Assembly: GCA_903917345.1 (NCBI GenBank)
Contig: CAIXAE010000043.1
Location: 62,001 to 126,000 of the forward strand
Direction of reading: 5' to 3'
Length of the DNA stretch: 64,000 nucleotides
From: an uncultured Methylococcaceae bacterium
GTDB lineage: Bacteria; Pseudomonadota; Gammaproteobacteria; Methylococcales; Methylomonadaceae
The notes beneath the pieces are model-generated. The model made no database searches, was not told where the DNA came from, and was given only the letters and a program-made list of their open reading frames with translations. This document shows positions 1 through 53,420 of this stretch, in pieces (within the stretch, counting starts at the first letter, position 1; each line of letters opens with the position of its first letter). A program made the translations under genes and the position numbers.

Positions 1-2819
1 TATGCATAGTGTCTATGCTCACCATCACCCACAATATTTTCAACACAACGACCACACAACTCTGGATGCTCTGCATGCACGCCAACGTCAGGGCGCTGAT
101 GCCAACAACGCACACACTTATGTTGTTCTGATACTAATACTTTTAATTTAAGCCCATCGACTTCAGTTTGAATTGCATCGGCCGGTGCTTCTTGTTCAGA
201 CTTAACAGTCGCTGTGGATGTAATAAAAATAAACTGTAACTCTCCAGATAATTGGCTTAAAGCACTTAAGTATTCGGCATTACCATACAACTCAAGTTCT
301 GCATTTAAGGAAGATCCAATATCACCTTTTGCACGACTCTTCTCTAGTTCTTTACTTACCGCCGTTCTAACTGACATTATTTTTTGCCAGAAATCACGAT
401 TTAAAGTCGCACTGTCATCCAATGCCACTAAACCTGGGTACCAAGTTTCTAAGAATACGGACTCACTGCGTTCACCCGGAATATACTGCCAAATTTCATC
501 AGCCGTATAACTAATAATAGGGGCCAACCAACGCGTTAATGCCTCAATTACATGATACATAGCCGTTTGTGCGGAACGACGTGCTAAACCGTTAGTTTTA
601 GCGGTATATTGTCGATCTTTTACAATGTCCAAATAAAATCCACCTAAATCTATCACGCAGAAATGATGAACTTTTTGGAAAATTTGCTGAAATTGATAGG
701 TTTCATAAGCCGCTTTAACTTCTTCTTGCAAGTTAAAGGCTCTATCTAATAACCAACGATCTAAGGCCAATAAGTCTTCTGTTGCCACTAAGTCTTGCGC
801 AGGATTAAAATCGTTTATGCTAGATAATAAGAATCGAGCCGTATTTCTTAAGCGTCTATAGCCATCAGAGGTTCGTTCTAGAATCTCATCAGATACACGC
901 ATTTCACTGCGATAATCAGAAGATGCAATCCATAAGCGTAATACATCCGCACCCAAGTTTTTCATAACCGCTTGTGGTGGAATGACATTACCTTTTGATT
1001 TAGACATCTTCTCACCGTTTTTATCAACGGTAAATCCATGGGTTAACACGGCTTTATAGGGCGCCACATCATGCATGGCAGTCGATGCTAGTAATGATGA
1101 TTGGAACCAACCACGATGCTGATCAGAACCCTCTAAATATAAATCAGCTGGATAAGTTAATTGCGCACGTTTAGCCAATACGCAAGCATGAGTAACCCCA
1201 GAGTCAAACCACACATCTAAGGTATCGGACATTTTGTCGTAATCATCAGCTTCAGCACCCAATAATTCAGCTTTATCTAATTCAAACCACGCTTCTATAC
1301 CTTTTTCTTCAATGCGTAATGCCACTGCTTCAATTAATTCTGCGGTGCGTGGATGCAATTCTCGTGTTTCTTTATGAATAAAGAAAGTAATCGGCACACC
1401 CCAAGTACGCTGACGAGAGATACACCAATCAGGACGACCTTCTAACATACTTTCGATACGCGCCTGACCCCAATCTGGAATCCACTCTACTTTTTTAACT
1501 TCAGCTAACGCTAAATCACGCAGATGATTTTTATTCATCGAGATAAACCACTGCGCAGTGGCTCTAAAAATAATCGGGGTTTTATGACGCCAGCAATGCG
1601 GATAACTGTGCAAGATTGCGTGATGATGCAACAATTTTCCTTGGGCTTCTAAAACTTCTAATACTTTTGCGTTCGCATTAAAAACATGCTGACCCGCAAA
1701 AATCTCAGTGTTAGCTAAGAATACCCCATCAGCACCCACCGGATTTTCTACAGGTAAACTATATTTTTGACCCACCACATAATCTTCTTGTCCGTGACCT
1801 GGTGCTGTGTGAACAGCACCCGTACCCGCATCCGTTGTTACATGATCGCCTAAAATAATGGGTACTTGACGATCATAGAACGGATGTTGAACTAATTGAT
1901 GTTCCCAAGCCGACCCCAGGGCATAAGCTAATACGTGATAAGTCTCTACGCTATAACGTAGCATAGTGTCTTTTAGTAAGGCTTCCGCAACAACTAAACG
2001 CTCAGTTTCAGTTTGTACTACGACGTATTCTAGTTCTGAATTTAACGCGACCGCCTGATTAGCTGGCAATGTCCATGGCGTAGTTGTCCAAATGACTACT
2101 GATAACGGTCCATGTCCTTCATGCTCTGGCGCGTGATGACATGAACTTAAAAACGCTGCTTCATCCACCACGTTAAATCGAACATCAATAGCCGGCGAAT
2201 GTTTATCTTCATATTCAACTTCCGCTTCTGCTAAAGCGGAACCACAATCCGTACACCAGTGCACGGGTTTAGCACCTGCAGTAATATGACCTTTTTTAGC
2301 AATTTGACCCAATGATCTAACGATATCAGCTTCAAACCCAAAATCCATTGTTAAATAAGGGCTCTGCCAATCACCTAAAATACCCAAGCGAATGAACGCT
2401 TCTTTTTGAATTTCGACTTGCTTTGCGGCATATTCACGACATGCTTTACGAAATACGGCAGGAGAAACTTTAACGCCTGCTTTGCCAATTTTCTTTTCAA
2501 CCATTAACTCGATAGGTAGTCCGTGACAGTCCCACCCAGGCACATAAGGCACATCAAACCCACTTAATGTCTTAGACTTAATAATAAAATCTTTTAATAC
2601 TTTATTAACAGCGTGGCCAATATGGATTTCTCCATTTGCATACGGAGGACCATCATGCAATATAAAAGGCGGACGATCTGCAAAAGCTGACCTGATCTTT
2701 TGATACAAACCCGCCTCATTCCATTTCTTTAAGCGTTCTGGTTCACGTTGCGCTAAGTTTCCTTTCATAGGGAACTCAGTAGCCGGTAAATTGAGGGTCT
2801 TTTTATAATCTACAGTCAT
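1..2819 (-). CDS. ileS: Isoleucyl-tRNA synthetase, complete except last base of stop
   Basis: Charges tRNA-Ile with isoleucine in the cytoplasm; class I synthetase with CP1 editing domain. Translating the minus strand from the ATG at 2819 gives an open frame of 939 codons to the window edge. It carries the HIGH-type motif as HIGH within 'GEIHIGHAV', the KMSKS loop (994-1008, '[10 protein letters not shown]'), and a C-terminal zinc finger of the form CVRCW...CGRC. It ends GDGEHRHYA, matching the end of E. coli IleS (938 aa), and the last two bases of the window read TA. The gene is therefore whole apart from the third base of its stop codon. Its ATG overlaps the ribF stop as ATGA (2816-2819), so the two are probably translationally coupled. 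lspA would be expected next, outside the window. Confidence 0.97.
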
Positions 2820-3757
2820 AATCTTTTTATCTCAGCAAAAATCTTTTTAGTCTCAGCCACATCTTTTAATATCTGGGCTTTTAGTTCTTCTAGCGAATCA
2901 AATCGTAATTCATCCCTAATCTTTTTATGAAAATGTACCTCTACATAACGTCCGTAGATTTCCTTATCAAAATCGAACAGATAAGTTTCTAAAATAACTT
3001 TAGATCCTCCATCGACAGTAGGGCGCGTACCCACATTAGCAACACCCTCAAAAACTAAGCCATCAATCCCTGACATAGTGACAGCAAACACTCCGTTGAT
3101 AGGGGTGTTTTTTCTAAACATTTGTATATTAGCCGTTGGAAACCCAATTGTGCGACCTCGTTTATCACCATGGGCAACGCGTCCACAGATAGAATAATTA
3201 TGCCCCAATAATTGCTCGGCTTTTACTAAATCACCCGCATTTAAAGCATCTCTAATCAGCGTACTGCTCACCCGTAAACCAGCAAATTGATAAGTGCCAG
3301 TATCTTCAACAGAAAAACCATGTTGCAAGCCCATTTCTTTAAGCATGGCGAAATTACCACGTCGAGCTTTGCCAAAGCGAAAATCATCACCGACAACCAC
3401 ATGCTTAACGTTTAATTTATTGATTAAAATACTATCAATAAACTGCTCCGCGTCATAGTTAGCGAAGTTTTGATTAAATCCAACTATTAATAAGTTATCA
3501 ACAGGTAATTTAGAAATTGCTAGTACTTTTTCACGTAAACACATTAATCGAGAGGGCGCGTTATCCCCTAAAAAATATTCTAAGGGCTGAGCTTCAAAAG
3601 TCATTATTACCACTGGCAAGTCTAAAGCTTTTCCTCTTTCAGCGAGTTTTTTTATCACATCCTGGTGACCTAAATGCACGCCATCAAAATTACCTATAGT
3701 CAAAACACAGCCATTGTTAAATGACTCTAAATGAGATAAGCCTCTAATTAATTGCAT
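2816..3757 (-). CDS. ribF: Bifunctional riboflavin kinase / FAD synthetase
   Basis: Makes FMN from riboflavin and then FAD, using ATP, in the cytoplasm. The 313-aa protein has the usual two-domain order. The N-terminal FAD synthetase nucleotidyltransferase carries '[13 protein letters not shown]' (about residues 21-33) and 'STLIRDAL'. The C-terminal flavokinase carries '[11 protein letters not shown]' and '[10 protein letters not shown]'. Length is normal for the family. It lies between murJ (47-bp gap) and ileS (4-bp ATGA overlap), the conserved gammaproteobacterial order murJ-ribF-ileS, so cotranscription is likely. Nothing unusual was seen. Confidence 0.97.
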
Positions 3758-3804
3758 GATTCTTTTTAATGAGGAAAAGATTTTTATTCTATCATGCGAA
3801 GCAC

Positions 3805-5346
3805 TTAAATGCGGCAGTCATCCGACAAATGATGCCACCTTAAACCAGTTAATACTAAGGTAGAACAGTAAACAAACATCCCAACCACAATCCACTTTAT
3901 TAATTGAATAACCCGCTCAGTAGAGCGCCATTGTTGCCACCAATCCACATCAACCCAATAATATAATGCTATATACATGGCTGTACTCGCTAAAAATATA
4001 CGCACAAAAAATCTAACCCAACCCAACACGGGGCAATAAATTTTATCTTTATATAATTTCACTAACAACAAGAGTGCATTAACCAGCGCGCCCAAAGACG
4101 TCGCCAAAGCAAGCCCGGCATGTGCTAATGGAAATACCAAGATCATGTCCAGAACCAAACTTAAGCCCATAGACCATAATCCATAGCGCAATGGTGTTTG
4201 CATATCCTGACGAGAAGTAAAACCTGAAACTAGAATCCTAATAGCAATATAACCAAGCAATCCAGCTGCGTAAGCTTTTAAACTTAATGCTGAATTATGG
4301 ACATCTTGCAAACTGAATTCTTTATACTGAAACAGAGTCGAAATCATGGGCTCAGCTAATACCACTAATCCAATAGTTGCGGGCATACCCAATAATAAAA
4401 CCAACCTCAATCCCCAATCAAGGGTATTAGAAAAATTATCTTGAGCTTTTGAAGCGAAGCTCTTTGCCAACCGAGGCAAAATAACAGTTCCTAAAGCCAA
4501 GCCCAATAATCCAACAGGGAACTCCACAAGGCGGTCAGAATAATACAACCAAGACACACTACCTACAGTCAAAAATGAGGCAATTAAGGTATCTAACAAC
4601 AAATTAATCTGTGTCACCGAAACACTAAAAATAGCTGGCCCCAACAACCGAAGCATTTTTTTTACTTCTGGATCACTATATCCCCATTTAAATCTTGGCA
4701 ACAATCCTAACCGTAACAGTGAAGGGACTTGAAATAACAATTGCACTAAACCTGCCGCAAAGACCCCCCAAGCCAACGCTTCAACTGGCTGGCTCATTAA
4801 AGGAGCCCACCATATAGCGGCTATAATCATACAAATATTTAAAAAAACAGGCGTTAAAGCTGGCACCAAAAATTGACCATAAGCATTTAATATCCCACCC
4901 GCAAGCGCAACTAAACCGATGAAAAACAAATACGGTAAACAAATCTTCAATAATAAGCAGGTTAACTCAAATTGCGATCCTTGCAGAGCAAAACCTGGCG
5001 CTATTATCAATATAATGACAGGAGCCAACAACACCCCTAAAACACTTAAACCCAACAAAAACAGAGCTATGGTGCCAGCTACATTATCTATAAATGACTG
5101 CGTATCAAGGTTACTGCCCTGCTCTCTATAGTTGGCTATAATAGGTACAAAGGCATGCGCAAAAGCGCCTTCTGCAAATAACCGGCGAAAAAAGTTAGGT
5201 ATTTTAAAAGCGACAAAAAATGCATCTGTTGCTATATCAACTCCAAATAGTCTGGCTATTAACATATCCCGTACAAACCCGAGACTACGAGATATTAAGG
5301 TCATACTGCTAACAACAGCAGTAGATTTAAGAAGCTGACGACTCAA
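3805..5346 (-). CDS. murJ: Lipid II flippase MurJ
   Basis: Inner-membrane MOP-superfamily flippase that moves lipid II to the periplasmic face for peptidoglycan synthesis. The frame is open from a GTG at 5364. I prefer the TTG at 5346 because an AAGGA lies six bases before it and the product then begins MSRQLLKSTAVVSSMT, the usual MurJ N-terminus ahead of 'RSLGFVRDML'. That gives 513 aa, close to the 511 aa of E. coli MurJ. Many hydrophobic segments run to the end, consistent with 14 helices. It is divergent from rpsT and upstream of ribF, the standard arrangement. The start choice is an inference; the identity is secure. Confidence 0.95.
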   Translation of the reverse strand: MSRQLLKSTAVVSSMTLISRSLGFVRDMLIARLFGVDIATDAFFVAFKIPNFFRRLFAEGAFAHAFVPIIANYREQGSNLDTQSFIDNVAGTIALFLLGLSVLGVLLAPVIILIIAPGFALQGSQFELTCLLLKICLPYLFFIGLVALAGGILNAYGQFLVPALTPVFLNICMIIAAIWWAPLMSQPVEALAWGVFAAGLVQLLFQVPSLLRLGLLPRFKWGYSDPEVKKMLRLLGPAIFSVSVTQINLLLDTLIASFLTVGSVSWLYYSDRLVEFPVGLLGLALGTVILPRLAKSFASKAQDNFSNTLDWGLRLVLLLGMPATIGLVVLAEPMISTLFQYKEFSLQDVHNSALSLKAYAAGLLGYIAIRILVSGFTSRQDMQTPLRYGLWSMGLSLVLDMILVFPLAHAGLALATSLGALVNALLLLVKLYKDKIYCPVLGWVRFFVRIFLASTAMYIALYYWVDVDWWQQWRSTERVIQLIKWIVVGMFVYCSTLVLTGLRWHHLSDDCRI

Positions 5347-46153: not shown

Positions 46154-49100
46154 ATGATTGAAAATCTAATTGCTTTTTGCCTACAACAACGCCTGATGGT
46201 TATCGGCGCCACCCTTGCTATTGCAATTTCTGGGATTATTGCTTTTGAAAAACTACCCGTCCAAGCTTTTCCAGATGTACAGAATGTATTTGTACAAGTG
46301 GTGACCCAATACCCTGGCCAAGCTCCTGAAGAGGTTGAAAAGCTGATTTCATTACCTATTGAACGCGTAATGAATGGTTTGCCGCACCTAATGAACATGC
46401 GCTCTGTTTCTATCTTTGGTCTTTCGGTAGTGACACTCACTTTTGACGACGATGCCGAAGACTATTTTTCTAGGCAACAAGTTTTAGAACGCATCCAAAA
46501 TGCAGATATTCCTGATAACGCCAAGCCCCAATTAGGCCCACTATCAACGGGTGTAGGAGAAATTTTACGCTATGTTGTCGATGCAAAAAACTTACCCCTA
46601 GTTGAACAACGGGCCTTACAAGATTGGGTCATTGAACCTAAAATCAGGGCCGTGCAAGGCGTTGCTGACGTAGTCTCTTATGGCGGAGGAGTTAAAGAAT
46701 ATAAAGTAGCCGCCAAACCCGATCAACTAAAAAACTACAATATTGATCTTCAACAAGTATTTGATGCTATCGCAGCCAACAATAGTAATACGGGGGGGGG
46801 CTATATTGCGTATGGTGATGAAGCACTCGTTGTGCGTGGCATTGGCTTACTAAAGTCGGCTGATGAAATCGGAGAAATAGTGGTTGATACCCATGATGGC
46901 GTACCTGTTCGCATCAAAGATGTCGCTGATATTTCAGTTGGCCCTCAACCCCGCACAGGCGTAGTCGCTAAAGACCAGCAAAATGATATCGTTGAAGGCA
47001 TTGTGTTACTGATTAAAGGTCGAGATGCGGTCAATGTATTAGGAGGGGTTAAAGAAAAAATCAAAGAGCTTAATGAGTTCGGATTACCACCAGGCGTAAA
47101 AGTGACTCCGATCTACGATAGGACTGAGTTAGTAGGTCATACTGTGCATACTGTTGAGCATAATATGCTTGAAGGTGCTGCGTTAATCATGATTATTCTG
47201 CTTGTTTTCCTGCGCCGTTTTATGGCGGCGTTTTTAGTCACATTAATCATTCCACTGTCATTATTATTCTCCTTTATTCTGGTTGATCTGGGTGGTATTT
47301 CAGCCAATCTCATTTCTTTGGGTGCGATTGACTTCGGTATTATTGTCGATAGTGCTGTGGTCTTAGTTGAAGCCGTCATGGTGCAGGTAACACTTGACCT
47401 ACATAAAAATGTTGATTTGCGGCATTTACGCCAAACCCTATTAGTCACTGCAACAGAAATGGGACGGCCTATACTATTTTCCAAGGCCATTATTATTATC
47501 GCTTTTTTACCTATCTTTACTTTCCAACGGGTAGAAGCAAAAATCTTCTCCCCTATGGCCTATACATTAAGCTTTGCACTTGTCGCTTCAATGCTCTTCA
47601 GTCTCACTTTTGTACCCGCGATGCTCACCTATTTATTAGGACCCAATATATCCGAAACGCATAACCCTTTAGTAGAATCGATGGAAAAACACTATCGACG
47701 AATCATCGAATGGGTACTAAAACATGCTCGCACCGTATTTATTACCGCAGTAGCCACACTAATACTCAGCTTTATGTCTGTTAAATTTATCGGTACTGAA
47801 TTTATGCCGAAACTGGATGAGGGTAATATTTGGTTGACTATTACTTTACCCACTCCTGTTTCATTAGACACCGCTAAAAAAGTCGAACAAGAAGTTAGAG
47901 AAAAACTAGAAACATTTACTGAAGCCAAAATGGTCTTAACTCAACTCGGTCGACCCGAAGATGGAACAGATCCTAAAGGCTTCAATAACCTTGAAGTCTT
48001 GATTGATTTAAACCCCAAAGACACATGGCGTTATAAGAAAAAAGACTTACTTATCCAAGCGATGGACAAGGAACTCTCTATTTTTCCTGGCATACTGACA
48101 AACTTCTCTCAAGTTATTCAAGATAACGTTGAAGAAGCTATCTCAGGCGTAAAGGGTGAAATAGCCATAAAAGTCTTCGGCAGTGATCTTAAAACCTTAC
48201 AAGACAGAGCTGATCAAATCACACATATTTTAGCGTCTATTCAAGGCGCAACTGACGTTGCTGCGGAACAGCAGGCCGGACTCGCTCAAGTGATGATTGA
48301 TATTGACCGAGCAAAGGTCTCACGTTATGGCATCAATATTTCTGATGTAGAAGACGTCATTGAAATGGGTATGGGAGGCAAGTCGGCTTCACAATTTTTA
48401 GAGGGTGAGCGACGCTTTGATATTACATTACGCTACGAAGAAAATGCACGAAACTCGGTTGCAGGCTTAGAAAACTTAACCGTACAGACACCTAATGGAG
48501 CACGTATACCTTTAGCTGAACTGGCAACCATTAAGATTAATCAAGGCGCATCTCGAATCAGCAGAGAAGATAATATGCGCAGAATTGCTATCAAATGTAA
48601 TCTGATTAATCGAGACCAGGGAAGTTTTGTCGCCGAGGCTCAAGAAAAAGTCGCCGCCCAAGTTGATTTACCTCCTGGTTACCGAGTGGTCTGGAGTGGA
48701 CAATTCGAGAATCAACAAAGAGCTATGAAACGCTTAGCCGTTATTGTCCCTATCAGTTTAGGATTAATTTTTGTCTTACTGTTCTGGGCATTTATGTCGA
48801 TCAAAAATGCCCTACTTATTTTAATGAATGTACCCTTCGCTATGATTGGAGGTATTTTAATTTTATTAGCAACGGGTATTAATCTAAGTGTATCAGCCGC
48901 TGTAGGCTTTATTGCTTTATTTGGTATTGCTGTACAAAACGGCGTCATTTTAGTATCCCAACTTAATAAATTACGTCGAGAAGGTCACTCTTTACATGAT
49001 GCAATAGTCAACGGCTCTGTTAGCAGATTAAGGCCCGTAGTGATGACGGCTATGATGGCCATGTTAGGCCTTTTTCCAGCTGCCCTATCAACCAGCGTTG

Positions 49101-49222
49101 GATCAGAAACTGCCAAACCATTTGCTGTAGTAATCATTGGTGGATTATTAACGGCTACTCTGTTAACTTTAACATTGTTACCAGCACTCTATCGCTATTT
49201 TGCTGAACCTGACGAACTATAA
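46154..49222 (+). CDS. czcA: Heavy-metal RND efflux pump, CzcA-like
   Basis: Proton-driven metal exporter of the inner membrane, 1022 aa with the duplicated RND fold. The helix-4 motif is 'DFGIIVDSAVVLVEAV', the DFG...D...E type of the divalent-cation (Zn/Co/Ni/Cd) group, although the usual VEN reads VEA here. 'NNSNTGGGYIAYGDEALVVRG' region (about 210-230) is the conserved porter strand. Its Gly codons contain a run of nine Gs (46792-46800), rare in this AT-rich DNA and prone to slippage. It is followed by a PII paralogue after 14 bp. Confidence 0.93.
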   Translation: MIENLIAFCLQQRLMVIGATLAIAISGIIAFEKLPVQAFPDVQNVFVQVVTQYPGQAPEEVEKLISLPIERVMNGLPHLMNMRSVSIFGLSVVTLTFDDDAEDYFSRQQVLERIQNADIPDNAKPQLGPLSTGVGEILRYVVDAKNLPLVEQRALQDWVIEPKIRAVQGVADVVSYGGGVKEYKVAAKPDQLKNYNIDLQQVFDAIAANNSNTGGGYIAYGDEALVVRGIGLLKSADEIGEIVVDTHDGVPVRIKDVADISVGPQPRTGVVAKDQQNDIVEGIVLLIKGRDAVNVLGGVKEKIKELNEFGLPPGVKVTPIYDRTELVGHTVHTVEHNMLEGAALIMIILLVFLRRFMAAFLVTLIIPLSLLFSFILVDLGGISANLISLGAIDFGIIVDSAVVLVEAVMVQVTLDLHKNVDLRHLRQTLLVTATEMGRPILFSKAIIIIAFLPIFTFQRVEAKIFSPMAYTLSFALVASMLFSLTFVPAMLTYLLGPNISETHNPLVESMEKHYRRIIEWVLKHARTVFITAVATLILSFMSVKFIGTEFMPKLDEGNIWLTITLPTPVSLDTAKKVEQEVREKLETFTEAKMVLTQLGRPEDGTDPKGFNNLEVLIDLNPKDTWRYKKKDLLIQAMDKELSIFPGILTNFSQVIQDNVEEAISGVKGEIAIKVFGSDLKTLQDRADQITHILASIQGATDVAAEQQAGLAQVMIDIDRAKVSRYGINISDVEDVIEMGMGGKSASQFLEGERRFDITLRYEENARNSVAGLENLTVQTPNGARIPLAELATIKINQGASRISREDNMRRIAIKCNLINRDQGSFVAEAQEKVAAQVDLPPGYRVVWSGQFENQQRAMKRLAVIVPISLGLIFVLLFWAFMSIKNALLILMNVPFAMIGGILILLATGINLSVSAAVGFIALFGIAVQNGVILVSQLNKLRREGHSLHDAIVNGSVSRLRPVVMTAMMAMLGLFPAALSTSVGSETAKPFAVVIIGGLLTATLLTLTLLPALYRYFAEPDEL

Positions 49223-49236
49223 ACATCTAGTGAATT

Positions 49237-49563
49237 ATGAAAGAAATACGCGCATTTATTCAGCCACATAAACTAAATCATGTCACTATGGCATTATTAG
49301 AAATTCAAAATTTTCCAGGCATGTCAGTCATAGACTGTGAGGGTTTTGGGAGAGAACGCACCCAACATGTTCAAGATTACAAACCCTTTCTCCCCAAAAA
49401 GCGAATCGAAATTTTTGCTCCCGACCATTTAGTTGAGAGCATTTTTCAAACGATCATGAGATCCGCTTTCAGCGGCCAACACGGTGACGGTAAAGTTTAC
49501 ATCATCGATATGATTGAGGGTGGTCGAGTCAGTACTGGCGAAAGACATACCGACCTAGGCTAA
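49237..49563 (+). CDS. PII-family protein linked to CzcA (PII-NG type)
   Basis: 108-aa trimeric PII-like protein encoded last in the efflux operon. It keeps the nucleotide-binding C-terminal signature as 'SGQHGDGKVYI' and the B-loop-like 'STGERHTD', so ATP/ADP binding is plausible. The T-loop region 'FGRERTQHVQDYKPFLPKKR' lacks the GlnB uridylylation context. This matches the PII-NG group known to accompany CzcA-type pumps. It may adjust efflux to energy state or metal load; the target is unknown. No glnK/amtB partner is adjacent. Confidence 0.85.
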   Translation: MKEIRAFIQPHKLNHVTMALLEIQNFPGMSVIDCEGFGRERTQHVQDYKPFLPKKRIEIFAPDHLVESIFQTIMRSAFSGQHGDGKVYIIDMIEGGRVSTGERHTDLG

Positions 49564-49599: not shown

Positions 49600-50689
49600 C
49601 AGGCGTATAACTTAAATCAAAAGCTTCTGCTACAGCAGGATAAGTCATTAAGCCCTTGTAGGTATTAAGTCCATTTTGTAAAGACTTACTCTTACGCACA
49701 GCATCCAAACCCTCATTTGCCAACTGTAAGACATAAAATAAAGTCTGATTATTTAAGGCAAAGGTACTTGTTCTTGGAACAGCGCCGGGCATATTAGCTA
49801 CACAATAATGCACAACCCCATCAATTACAAAAGTAGGCTGACTGTGTGTAGTAGCACGTGTCGTCTCTATACAACCACCTTGATCAACCGCTACGTCAAC
49901 AATAACAGCCCCGTTTCTCATATTAGGCAGCATATCTCGCGTGACCAACCAAGGCGCACGTGCACCTGGAATTAATACGGCGCCGACCACTAAATCTGCC
50001 TGATAAACACACTCTTCTATCGTATGTTGATCACTGATACGGGTTTGTAATTGACCGCGATAAAGATCATCTAAATACTTTAAACGCTCATGACTAATAT
50101 CTAACACAGTCACTTGCGCCCCCATGCCCACAGCGACTCTAGCGGCATTACTACCCACAATTCCGGCACCTAAAACAACCACATTAGCGGGTGCAACTCC
50201 TGGCACTCCTCCCATTAAAACACCCCTACCACCATGAGACTTTTGCAAATAGGTCGCTCCAACTTGGGTAGCCATACGACCCGCCACTTCACTCATGGGT
50301 ATTAATAACGGTAATTGACCGGATTCAGTTTGAACCGTTTCATAAGCTATCGCTGTTGTGCCACTGGCTAATAAAGCCTCGGTTAATGGTTTATCGGAAG
50401 CCAAATGCAAATAAGTAAACAACAACAAATCCGCCCGCAAATAATGATATTCAGCAGCAACAGGTTCTTTTACTTTAACTACCATTTGAGTCGCCCAAAC
50501 GGCATCAGCACTAACGACAACTTCAGCACCCGCGGCGATATACTCTTCATCAGAAATGGAGCTTCCTAAACCAGCACCCTGCTGAACTAAAACGTGATGA
50601 CCACTCCGAGTCAGTGCTTTTACGGCACCTGGCGTTAAACCCACACGGTACTCATTATCTTTAATTTCTTTAGGTAACCCAATACGCAT
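49580..50689 (-). CDS. ald: Alanine dehydrogenase
   Basis: NAD-dependent interconversion of L-alanine with pyruvate and ammonia. The ATG at 50689, preceded by GAGGT, gives 369 aa starting '[20 protein letters not shown]'; the frame also runs to 50701. Seen: substrate Lys in '[12 protein letters not shown]', catalytic His in '[12 protein letters not shown]', Rossmann '[16 protein letters not shown]', catalytic Asp in '[14 protein letters not shown]'. Length is typical (about 370). It has no amino-acid operon partner; divergent from the umpAB run across about 125 bp. Confidence 0.95.
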
Positions 50690-50815
50690 TTGTAACCTCA
50701 CTATTAACTAAAAAAACGAATAATATCCACCCTGTAAGTATCATAACAGTAACTCAATAACACAATACCGTACGTTTCATATACAATCTAAGGGCACTTT
50801 AAGATTGGGAAATTA

Positions 50816-51544
50816 ATGTTTAAAAAGCGCTTTATCAATCAATTAATTAATAGCTTTTTTGATTTATCACCCATACTGGCTGTGGTAGTTATTTTTCAAG
50901 TGCTTATCATTCGACAATCAATACCTGATGTAGGCCACTTTGTGGTGGGTATTGTGTTTGTGCTCGTTGGCCTAAGTTTATTCATTCAAGGACTAGAACT
51001 CAGCTTGTTTCCACTCGGCGAATCTATGGCCTACGCCTTTGCAAGAAAAGGTAGTTTGTTCTGGCTACTTACTTTTGCCTTCTGTTTGGGATTCGGGGCT
51101 GCTATTGCAGAACCTGCATTAATGAATATTGCCTTACAAGCATCTGAAGTCGCCGTTAAAAAAGCTGTCATTAGCCCAACGTTAGAGGCTAAAAACTTAT
51201 ATGCACTAGGTTTTAGGATCATTGTTGCCGTTTCTATTGGTCTGGCAATTCTTGTCGGTGTACTACGCATCATCAAAGGTTGGCCGGCCTATTATCCGGT
51301 ATTTTATGCTTATGTCTTTATAGCACTCATCACCCCTTTTACACCCGCAGACATACTCGGTATTGCTTATGATTCGGGCTGCATTGCCACATCAACATTG
51401 ACTGTTCCGCTTGTCACAGCACTGGGTGTTGGTTTAGCTACAGCCATTAAAGGCCGAAACCCTATGACCGATGGTTTTGGCTTACTTGTTTTTGCCTCAC
51501 TAACGCCCATTATTTCCGTCATGCTCTACGGTATTGTTCTATGA
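50816..51544 (+). CDS. umpA: DUF1538 membrane protein, UmpA-like antiporter subunit
   Basis: Inner-membrane protein of 242 aa with about six to seven helices. DUF1538 pairs (UmpA/UmpB) were described in Halomonas as a two-part Na+(Li+,K+)/H+ antiporter; the assignment here is by family. Motifs shared with the next gene are 'FIQGLELSLFPLGE', 'AAIAEPALMNIA', 'GIAYDSGCIATSTLTVPLVT' and 'GRNPMTDGFGLL'. The conserved Glu and Asp residues in hydrophobic surroundings fit ion coupling. Its TGA overlaps the next ATG (51541-51544), so the two products are likely made in equal amounts. Confidence 0.8.
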   Translation: MFKKRFINQLINSFFDLSPILAVVVIFQVLIIRQSIPDVGHFVVGIVFVLVGLSLFIQGLELSLFPLGESMAYAFARKGSLFWLLTFAFCLGFGAAIAEPALMNIALQASEVAVKKAVISPTLEAKNLYALGFRIIVAVSIGLAILVGVLRIIKGWPAYYPVFYAYVFIALITPFTPADILGIAYDSGCIATSTLTVPLVTALGVGLATAIKGRNPMTDGFGLLVFASLTPIISVMLYGIVL

Positions 51545-52320
51545 GCGCATGGTTAATCGAATTCCTGCAGCTTGTATTAGAAACGACACGAGATTTTATT
51601 CCCATTTTTGTGGTGCTTATCGGCTTTCATTTGCTCATTATTCGTAAACCCATCAATAATCCTCAAAAGATTTTTACCGGCTTTATATTTGTTTTATTAG
51701 GTATCGCTGTCTTTCTTGAGGGTTTAGACATGGCCTTATTTCCGATTGGAAAATTGATGGCCACCCAACTTACCACGCCTGCGTTTTTAGGCATCAACCC
51801 TAATGATAAAACGGCATCTTGGCAAACCTATCGATGGATTTATCTCTTTGCCGCCAGCCTAGGATTTGCAGTCGCATTAGCAGAACCCTCATTACAAGCG
51901 ATTGCCAACAAAGCCGAACAAATATCAGGGGGGACGATTCGAGCATGGGGCTTAAGAATTGCCGTAGGCTTTGGACTAGGTACGGGTTTAGCTTTAGGAA
52001 CATTTCGAATTATCACCGGAACTGAGCTCTATTTATACATCGTTGCAGGCTTTGCCATTGCTGCATTGCAAACGCTATTTGCCCCTAAGTCCATCATTGG
52101 TATTGCTTTTGACTCTGGCACAGTCACTACCACCATGATTACCGTTCCCTTGGTCACCTCTTTAGGCATCGGTTTAGCGCAAGCTATACCAGGACGCAAC
52201 CCATTATTAGATGGTTTTGGCTTACTCGCCTTTGCTAGTTTATACCCTATTATTGCTGTTTTAAGTTACGCGCAAATTGCGCAATGGCTTAATAAGCGCT
52301 CTCTTTCATCCAAACCCTGA
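51541..52320 (+). CDS. umpB: DUF1538 membrane protein, UmpB-like antiporter subunit
   Basis: Paralogue of the preceding protein, 259 aa, with the same helix layout and motifs: 'FLEGLDMALFPIGK', 'VALAEPSLQAIA', 'GIAFDSGTVTTTMITVPLVT' and 'GRNPLLDGFGLLAFASLYP'. The pair probably arose by tandem duplication and forms a heteromer, as both subunits are needed in characterised UmpAB. It is followed after 8 bp by a PII-like gene with a GAGGA ribosome site. Confidence 0.8.
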   Translation: MSAWLIEFLQLVLETTRDFIPIFVVLIGFHLLIIRKPINNPQKIFTGFIFVLLGIAVFLEGLDMALFPIGKLMATQLTTPAFLGINPNDKTASWQTYRWIYLFAASLGFAVALAEPSLQAIANKAEQISGGTIRAWGLRIAVGFGLGTGLALGTFRIITGTELYLYIVAGFAIAALQTLFAPKSIIGIAFDSGTVTTTMITVPLVTSLGIGLAQAIPGRNPLLDGFGLLAFASLYPIIAVLSYAQIAQWLNKRSLSSKP

Positions 52321-52328
52321 GGACAACC

Positions 52329-52679
52329 ATGCATTTCAAATTAATTATTGCCTTCGTTGAAGATGATAAAACCGATACTGTATTAGATGCGGCGCGTGAA
52401 AGTGGCGCAAAAGGCGCAACGGTTATCAACCATGCTAGAGGCGAAGGTCTAAACCAATCTAAAACCTTTTTTGGCTTAACACTAGAATCACCCAGAGATG
52501 TACTAATGTTCTTAGTAGAAGAACATCTGAGCCGACATATCTTAGAAAAAATTGCCAAAGTGGCTCAATTTGACAATCAACCTGGCACCGGCATCGCCTT
52601 TCAAATTGACGTGGAAGATGCTATCGGTGTGATGCGACAAGTAGAAGAATTAACCCATGAGATCGAGGACAAATTATGA
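52329..52679 (+). CDS. PII-like regulator of the DUF1538 transporter
   Basis: 116-aa PII-superfamily protein. It has the beta-alpha-beta core 'FKLIIAFVEDDKTDTVLDAA', a short loop 'GATVINHARGEGLNQSKTFF' in place of a classical T-loop (no uridylylation Tyr), and 'GTGIAFQIDVEDAIGV' at the position of the PII nucleotide-binding GDGK strand. A C-terminal helix is acidic. Position between the antiporter genes and a CBS protein suggests an adenine-nucleotide or second-messenger sensor acting on UmpAB. Ligand unknown. Confidence 0.8.
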   Translation: MHFKLIIAFVEDDKTDTVLDAARESGAKGATVINHARGEGLNQSKTFFGLTLESPRDVLMFLVEEHLSRHILEKIAKVAQFDNQPGTGIAFQIDVEDAIGVMRQVEELTHEIEDKL

Positions 52680-53086
52680 TAGGAAATAACTCACCCATCC
52701 GTGTCAAAGACGTGATGAAAACGGACTTTGGCACGATTGACGGTATTGCCACGGTTGCAGATGCCTTAAAGAAAATGAAACTTCTAAAAACAGCCGTCTT
52801 AATTGTCAACAAACGAAATGAGAATGACGAATATGGCATGGTGACCTCAGGCGATATCGCTAGACACGTATTAGCCAGAGATCGTGCACCAGACCGAGTT
52901 AACGTGTATGAAATAATGAACAAGCCTGTTATTAGCGTCCATCCCGACATGGATATCCGCTATTGTTCGCGGCTTTTTGCCAACTATAATCTAGTAAGAG
53001 CGCCCGTTATTGAAAACAATCAAGTCATTGGAATGGTGAGTCCAAACTCTTTAGTGCTGGATGGAATGTATAAAACCTTTCAATAA
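52676..53086 (+). CDS. Tandem CBS-domain protein
   Basis: 136-aa soluble protein consisting of two CBS motifs forming one Bateman module: first 'VKDVMKTDFGTIDGIATVAD' to 'YGMVTSGDIARHVLARD', second 'VYEIMNKPVISVHPDMDI' to 'VIGMVSPNSLVLDGM'. Such modules bind AMP, ADP, ATP or SAM. Its ATG overlaps the PII-like stop (52676-52679), so all four genes of the operon are tightly coupled. Probable second nucleotide-sensing input to the transporter. Confidence 0.88.
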   Translation: MIGNNSPIRVKDVMKTDFGTIDGIATVADALKKMKLLKTAVLIVNKRNENDEYGMVTSGDIARHVLARDRAPDRVNVYEIMNKPVISVHPDMDIRYCSRLFANYNLVRAPVIENNQVIGMVSPNSLVLDGMYKTFQ

Positions 53087-53216
53087 ATAGCATCCTGAGC
53101 AAAATAGCAGTACAATTCGCATCTGCAGAGTATAGATATTGAACGAGAGGATGTCCCGGTTATCAATGTTGTAGTTCTGTGTTAACCGTAAGTATTTTTT
53201 TTAGGAGTTTTTTAAA

Positions 53217-53420
53217 ATGGCAACAGGCACTGTAAAGTGGTTCAACAACACTAAAGGTTTTGGTTTTATCGCACCCACTGATGGTGGCGAAGACGTATTC
53301 GTTCATCACTCTGTAATTCAAGGGGAAGGCTTTAAAACGTTAACAGAAGGCCAAACCGTGACTTTTGACATCGAATCTGGCCCAAAAGGCTTAACTGCAG
53401 TTAATGTTTATCCAAAATAA
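53217..53420 (+). CDS. Cold-shock protein, CspA family
   Basis: 67-aa single-strand RNA/DNA-binding OB-fold protein, an RNA chaperone. '[18 protein letters not shown]' carries RNP1 (KGFGFI) and '[10 protein letters not shown]' carries RNP2. A strong TAGGAG precedes the ATG by eight bases. The roughly 130-bp untranslated stretch upstream is long enough to be a temperature-responsive leader, as in other csp genes, but no specific structure was verified. A strong terminator follows; monocistronic. Confidence 0.95.

Follow-up and report, generated by a model that had tools for sequence, protein, structure and literature searches.

DUF1538 transporter genes with a dedicated PII-like gene: a putative regulated UmpAB-type transport operon in a Methylococcales bacterium

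Within the window, the whole stretch of 64,000 nucleotides from an uncultured Methylococcaceae bacterium that was analysed, four genes on the + strand (positions 50816-53086) code for two DUF1538 membrane proteins, a PII-like protein and a protein with two CBS domains, according to the list of open reading frames (ORFs) and the sequence. The recurrence of this gene order in most of the DUF1538 loci examined far exceeds chance. The constant unit is the DUF1538 transporter together with a dedicated PII gene and not the four genes alone. We conclude that DUF1538 transporters have a dedicated partner in this PII subfamily, which most likely acts as a direct gate. For the operon of the window, we think it fairly probable that all four genes constitute one regulated transport system comprising an UmpAB-type transporter, the PII-like protein as gate and the CBS protein as second sensor. 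The genes of the two soluble proteins are here named umpC and umpD.

Genes of the operon

50816..51544, + strand: umpA-like gene, DUF1538, 242 amino acids (Pfam, NCBIfam, AlphaFold2 model)
51541..52320, + strand: umpB-like gene, DUF1538, 259 amino acids; product 39% identical to that of the umpA-like gene, with which it overlaps by 4 bp
52329..52679, + strand: PII-like gene umpC, 116 amino acids (PII fold, Pfam P-II)
52676..53086, + strand: two-CBS-domain gene umpD, 136 amino acids; nearest solved sequence relative CBS-CP12 (5nmu)

The gene identities given in the original prediction were all above the Pfam cut-offs. DUF1538 (PF07556) was detected in the umpA-like and umpB-like products with E values of 8.4e-61 (205.4 bits) and 4.2e-62 (209.6 bits), respectively, at a gathering cut-off of 22.6. 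UmpC matched P-II (PF00543; 2e-12, 47.8 bits, cut-off 25) and UmpD revealed two CBS domains (PF00571; 3.6e-19, 69.3 bits, cut-off 24). The membrane proteins contain the predicted common motifs DSGCIATSTLTVPLVT / DSGTVTTTMITVPLVT and GRNPMTDGFGLL / GRNPLLDGFGLL, and their paralogy was upheld by the identity of 39%. The ORF coordinates also agree with the predicted order and spacing, in which umpA and umpB overlap by 4 bp, umpB and umpC are separated by 8 bp and umpC and umpD again overlap by 4 bp. It is this spacing only that suggests a single transcript, since promoter-like and terminator-like matches in the region 50600-53300 were not above the level of shuffled sequences.

The proposed UmpAB identity was borne out in part. 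The best NCBIfam model was UmpA for the first gene and UmpB for the second, and the 4-bp overlap and the identity of the products make them two adjacent paralogous subunits, as is characteristic of UmpAB. However, the equivalog cut-offs of NF041627 and NF041628 were missed (311 versus 490 bits for the first gene, 281 versus 500 bits for the second). Thus, the name UmpAB denotes a family relation here and not a confirmed orthologue. None of the 369 genomes of the class draw reached the UmpA equivalog cut-off.

Conservation of the gene order

Since the loci compared were the best-scoring matches and not random draws, the proportions given here are not to be taken as random-sample rates. A total of 218 distinct DUF1538 units was fetched, eight of which could not be judged because of contig ends. 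Duplicates were removed by comparing the 120 C-terminal residues encoded by the first DUF1538 ORF, and near-identical strains may persist. In 204 of the 210 judged units a PII-like gene is located downstream on the same strand, and 158 also possess the CBS gene, seven of the remaining units being too short to judge for CBS. Hence, the order DUF1538-DUF1538-PII-CBS, for which a survey had been proposed, recurs elsewhere, and the PII gene is consistently linked to the transporter, as it is in PII-controlled transporters. In 200 of the 204 units, no more than 300 bp separate the end of the DUF1538 domain from the PII start; more distant PII genes, which were counted as present, are located at 1473 bp (L273) and, in three other units, at 341-489 bp. 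Six units lack a downstream PII gene (L144, L276, L270, L110, L150 and L160). In L144 and L276, co-oriented PII genes lie upstream of DUF1538, and in L270 DUF1538 is followed by a protein of 369 amino acids with weak PII similarity (Pfam E value 0.0017, under the cut-off).

Loci of named genomes were obtained by a search with an UmpA alignment, from which the best 80 of at least 586 confirmed loci were analysed. UmpB follows UmpA in 76 of these 80 loci, while the other four end at a contig edge. A complete PII gene is present in 74 loci, plus one contig-end piece (L115), and a CBS gene in 69. In 59 of these 69 loci the overlap between the PII gene and the CBS gene, based on mechanical ORF starts, is exactly 4 bp. 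For the same number of loci (69), gene-tree likeness was expressed as Spearman correlation of pairwise distances, with values of 0.77 for UmpA and UmpB, 0.61 for PII and CBS and 0.32-0.43 for pairs of a membrane and a soluble protein, which argue for nothing without a species-tree control.

Among the gene families of 118 longer loci, DUF1538 (113), PII (78) and CBS (60) occurred most widely, followed by a family found in 23; the clustering used splits divergent members. A larger conserved operon was considered and rejected, as other families occur in at most 23 of the 118 loci and the representative ORF of the 23-locus family is antisense to the operon. The full four-gene order is retained in L113 of Candidatus Vesicomyosocius (chromosome of 1,033,397 bp), and its persistence in a symbiont genome of 1.03 Mb hints at a core role.

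Joint presence and absence in genomes

Detected in 34 of 41 relatives, DUF1538 was also found in the phylum draw (116 of 299 genomes), but in none of 14 well-known control genomes. A strong match to the umpC profile was found in all 34 relatives containing DUF1538 and in none of the seven lacking it. Two of the 34 matches are fragments, one at a contig end (G025) and one on another contig (G004, where DUF1538 is located at a contig end). The phylum of L130, Chloroflexota, gave a similar picture at an E value of 1e-8, with PII in 15 of 17 genomes with DUF1538 versus 0 of 184 without; in the two misses DUF1538 lies at a contig end. At the strict E value of 1e-20, PII was found in 87 of the 116 phylum-draw genomes with DUF1538 and in 5 of the 183 without. 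Twelve of the 29 unmatched genomes were inspected; 11 of these, from divergent lineages, contain a PII gene that was directly observed, and G258 has only a contig-end piece. A complete but small draw from the phylum of L117 (Desulfobacula record) contained DUF1538 in 7 of 148 genomes. PII is clear in four of the seven; the double match of G798 is weak, the match of G715 is weaker still, and the locus of G763 ends at a contig edge.

GlnK binding by AmtB informs nitrogen metabolism. Similarly, UmpAB could be a receptor from which UmpC (and UmpD) would be freed, or by which they would be retained, depending on ion or pH status, the soluble proteins acting elsewhere. Orphan copies of the PII subfamily near other genes suggest roles beyond cis gating, and several targets are possible for one PII, as stated in a review (PMC10710835). 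On the other hand, each of the 34 relatives with DUF1538 has a single strong umpC-like match, which in 33 genomes directly follows umpB, and a second conserved partner gene was not found in the 118 longer loci. We consider a receptor function rather unlikely and prefer gating of the transporter by its neighbouring PII protein. Orphan umpC-like copies were seen at L280-L297 in genomes outside the class of the window, with dusB-like and ntrB/ntrC-like neighbours in some and argB-like neighbours in others (named by eye). In families f48 and f61, several genomes with a CBS-less DUF1538 locus also contain a second umpC-like copy.

Divergent architectures and a fusion

In some lineages, both DUF1538 domains reside in one protein of about 500-740 amino acids. 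On clostridial replicons, the gene for such a fused transporter precedes a single PII gene of greater length, whose product comprises, by mechanical ORFs, 222 amino acids in Paraclostridium, 229 in Vescimonas, 222 in Peptoclostridium, 305 in Subdoligranulum and 217 in Acetoanaerobium. Two PII domains were detected in four of these five genes. L163 and L164 possess a fused transporter and then two PII genes, both of which were confirmed by Pfam in L163. Thus, a double PII replaces the single one in these lineages. Plasmids of Methylocystis and Chelativorans carry DUF1538, DUF1538 and PII in this order. Together with the clostridial replicons, these are the seven inspected of nine matching plasmid records (all except H2 and H4). 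As a CBS protein, a second PII or no further sensor accompanies PII depending on the lineage, it can be concluded that PII is constant while the second sensor varies. The CBS protein is an added sensor of some lineages and less constant than PII. Double PIIs in CBS-less lineages had prompted the idea of two sensors per transporter, but as a strict rule this is broken by the single-PII loci L152-L154, L218, L222 and L246.

A direct fusion was found in L255 (identical to L269; G979 of the Chloroflexota draw), where a single frame of 741 amino acids contains DUF1538 twice and, at its C-terminus, a PII domain (E value 2e-7). A second PII gene, whose product is 55% identical to the fused PII over 75 residues, is located directly behind it. 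The gene order is thus kept across several phyla, fused and split, and is accompanied by matched presence and absence, so that mere co-transcription of the genes with no direct functional tie is highly improbable, even though no experimental contact between the proteins is known to us.

Two further arrangements were noted. L144 contains, at 996-5187 on the - strand, an array in one orientation of a fused double DUF1538, PII, CBS, PII, DUF1538 and DUF1538. In L230 and L231 (phylum draw of L117) the fused DUF1538 proteins (713 and 706 amino acids by mechanical ORFs) have an insertion of approximately 85 residues in the second repeat and are followed by proteins of 369 and 381 amino acids, respectively, with weak repeated PII similarity.

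The soluble proteins UmpC and UmpD

The structural model of UmpC (predicted local distance difference test, pLDDT, 82) shows the PII fold. Its nearest solved structure is GlnK1 (2j9e_B; Z score 13.1, root-mean-square deviation 3.4 over 101 residues), with which other PIIs are tied within one Z unit. The tip of the T-loop (residues 40-46) was modelled at low confidence. In alignments with 3o8w and 3t9z, which are the best-matching solved PIIs, the T-loop region of UmpC lacks about five residues, whereas its length is nearly that of 9p1x_H. By score and fold, UmpC is a member of the PII superfamily, but by its contact residues it is not a canonical GlnB/GlnK protein. In 54 aligned sequences the equivalents of T29, G35, G37, G87 and G89 are nearly invariant, whereas Q39, E62, K90, R101 and R103, which we take to be nucleotide/2-oxoglutarate contacts (E. 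coli GlnB numbering), are not conserved, the aligned positions being mostly K/E/N, L/M, I, G and S/A/M, respectively. In UmpC, the positions of the canonical phosphate-binding basic residues are non-basic. Due to these losses, gating by ATP/ADP through the PII-like protein, as envisaged in the original prediction, is doubtful, and the same applies to canonical ATP/2-oxoglutarate sensing. The nucleotide cleft may nevertheless be partly retained, given the nearly invariant threonine and glycine positions. Cyclic di-AMP, whose binding had also been proposed for assay, is unlikely to be the messenger here, since diadenylate cyclase (PF02457) was found in 0 of 41 genomes, among which are the source genome and 27 with a completeness of 90% or more. 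In the positive control of this search, 11 of 14 genomes matched.

Instead of a nucleotide, the ligand of UmpC could conceivably be a metal, either the transported cation or a different one, as has been proposed for PII-NG beside CzcABC. The loss of K90, R101, R103, E62 and Q39 would fit such a function. According to PMC7726332, genes for PII-NG are clustered with those of CzcABC antiporters, and one PII-NG was suggested to be a metal sensor. However, the residues that may preserve part of the nucleotide cleft are nearly invariant, and metal sensing is unlikely.

The closest solved sequence relative of UmpD is the cyanobacterial CBS-CP12 protein (5nmu), which was matched with an E value of 4e-24 by the single protein and of 1.3e-36, across the whole CBS pair, by the alignment; the stretch YEIM-KP is common to both. 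CBS-CP12 of cyanobacteria binds AMP. By this relationship, UmpD probably senses an adenine nucleotide such as AMP. PII and CBS folds usually are ligand sensors, which counts against UmpC (with UmpD) being a structural or assembly subunit without ligand sensing. For a subunit of this kind, the near-constant linkage, the natural fusion and the lost canonical ligand residues would be expected, but the CBS member comes and goes among lineages, which fits optional control better, and UmpAB of Halomonas was active without a reported PII gene (PMC5484666). We therefore consider it quite unlikely that UmpC merely supports assembly, and retain its putative role as a gate.

The membrane proteins and the surroundings of the operon

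Through the relation to UmpAB of Halomonas, Na+(Li+,K+)/H+ antiport is predicted as the probable activity of an UmpA/UmpB heterodimer. The AlphaFold2 model of UmpA (pLDDT 92.2, predicted template modelling score 0.83) contains a helix break at 98-99, the site of E99, and short broken helices around D186 with breaks at 176-177 and 193-195. Both residues are invariant across 90 of 90 UmpA/UmpB alignment rows, as are R151, R214 and D219. Foldseek revealed no solved structure at an E value of 0.001 or better (best match BbZIP, 0.42), a re-comparison against 916 Foldseek matches gave Z scores of at most 5.7 over 63 residues, and a profile search of PDB sequences yielded a single insignificant match (E value 0.72). 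These results are neither proof of a new fold nor of its absence. In a part of the window's genus (window, L021, L024, L025, L026, L027, L028 and L030), UmpA has Ala-Ala in place of Thr-Thr at 95-96, Cys or Ser in place of G189 and Ala in place of T191, while L011 of the same genus retains the consensus residues. The substitutions affect otherwise conserved positions beside E99 and D186, and one subunit may thus coordinate ions differently. DUF1538 (PF07556) is tabled among the key pH-adaptation families in a study that applied machine learning to growth pH (PMC13255231).

The source genome has a size of 2.48 Mb and is 99.8% complete. Among the matches listed in the UmpA search, the nearest named relatives are Methylobacter and other Methylococcales, which points to the phylum Pseudomonadota. 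The operon is flanked by ordinary genes, alanine dehydrogenase upstream on the opposite strand and a cold-shock gene downstream. Further upstream (46154-49563, + strand), a gene for an AcrB-family resistance-nodulation-division (RND) pump (PF00873) is followed after 14 nt by another PII gene (49237-49563; PF00543, E value 5.1e-17), which is a probable case of PII-NG beside an RND pump, judging from the sequence. Together with the DUF1538-PII pair this makes two unrelated transporter-PII pairs inside 7 kb. The umpC-alignment search did not report this PII-NG-like gene; the second match in the source genome sits on another contig (22.8 bits).

Discussion

The gene identities, the gene order and the matched occurrence suggest the following mode of action. 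In the inner membrane, UmpA and UmpB would form a two-subunit DUF1538 transporter that probably exchanges monovalent cations for protons. UmpC would dock on the cytoplasmic face of this transporter, a small ligand deciding whether transport opens or closes. UmpD would add a second sensor in certain lineages, probably responding to an adenine nucleotide such as AMP and working via or beside UmpC. Direct binding, gating, the ligands and the ion transported in this organism are inferred.

Several observations weigh against this interpretation. L110, L150 and L160 have no PII gene nearby (in L110, within the 0.7 kb remaining on the contig), which means that a PII partner is not strictly required in cis. 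Conversely, the PII subfamily also occurs apart from DUF1538 in some genomes, as in G062, G157, G169, G185 and G221, where it lies near other genes and DUF1538 was not detected. Two of the seven relatives without DUF1538 match the PII profile weakly (23-24 bits, E value <1e-3), though these matches resemble second PII genes of DUF1538-bearing relatives. The Fisher tests of joint occurrence (4e-8 for the relatives, 9e-21 for Chloroflexota and 4e-43 for the phylum draw) leave shared ancestry uncorrected. The ORFs of the loci fetched contained no DUF1538-PII fusion other than L255, so that the fusion, as a pointer to contact between transporter and PII, relies on one genome, and the Pfam P-II model misses the fused PII part at an E value of 0.01. 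The Halomonas clone of 4.2 kb, as described in PMC5484666, contains a truncated citrate-transporter gene, a major facilitator superfamily gene, umpA and umpB, with nothing reported beyond umpB. UmpAB worked in E. coli from this clone without a reported PII gene, so that PII was not needed for its activity there. Finally, PII control appears to be restricted to transporters able to act as trimers (PMC10710835), while UmpAB was reported as a heterodimer (PMC5484666).

Nevertheless, a PII-gated transporter would have precedents, as PII proteins bind and inhibit AmtB, NrtABCD, UrtABCDE and SbtA (PMC10710835) and PII-NG genes cluster with the CzcABC proton/cation pumps (PMC7726332). PII proteins are sensors of wide occurrence in bacteria, but in the former paper only Amt, Nrt, Urt and SbtA are listed as transporter targets. 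The open-licence PMC papers with DUF1538 in their text, and two cable-bacteria papers naming UmpAB, do not mention PII or CBS proteins together with either, which is in line with the original prediction that this control mode had not been described for UmpAB; a lone text match to "PII" (PMC7221264) is part of a motif string. We found no precedent for this transporter family, or for the three-part arrangement, with PII. The DUF1538 activity data found were obtained without a neighbouring regulator. If our interpretation is true, a family of cation/proton antiporters with its own PII would couple the homeostasis of sodium, potassium and pH directly to a signal of metabolic or ionic nature. This would hold for several phyla, whose members include methanotrophs, sulfur-oxidising symbionts and Clostridia. 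More tentatively, it is possible, though we would not count on it, that DUF1538 is a whole cation/proton antiporter family under cis control of a dedicated PII clade. In that case, the asymmetry of the A and B subunits might be mirrored by a two-part sensor (either PII with CBS or two PIIs, one canonical-looking and one degenerate), PII control would not be limited to trimers and the ligand would not be ATP/2-oxoglutarate.

Like AmtB-GlnK and SbtA-SbtB, the system links a transporter with a small protein of the PII family. In contrast to these, the transporter is a pair of paralogous subunits and not a homotrimer, an extra CBS gene is present, and UmpC lacks the canonical ligand residues and has a T-loop shorter than that of its two best-matching solved PIIs. 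A relation of DUF1538 to the AmtB and SbtA transporters was not found by Foldseek or the PDB profile search. UmpD differs from CBS-CP12 in lacking the CP12 tail and in its gene context. With PII-NG/CzcABC, the system has in common that a PII-family gene stands beside a cation/proton antiporter, but the partner of PII-NG is an RND pump. Compared to UmpAB, which was described in Halomonas zhaodongensis as a two-component Na+(Li+,K+)/H+ antiporter of the DUF1538 family, the pair of the window scores under both equivalog cut-offs, and a text search of the Halomonas paper (PMC5484666) revealed no mention of PII or CBS proteins. What both have in common are two adjacent, overlapping and paralogous DUF1538 genes encoding proteins of approximately 250 amino acids.

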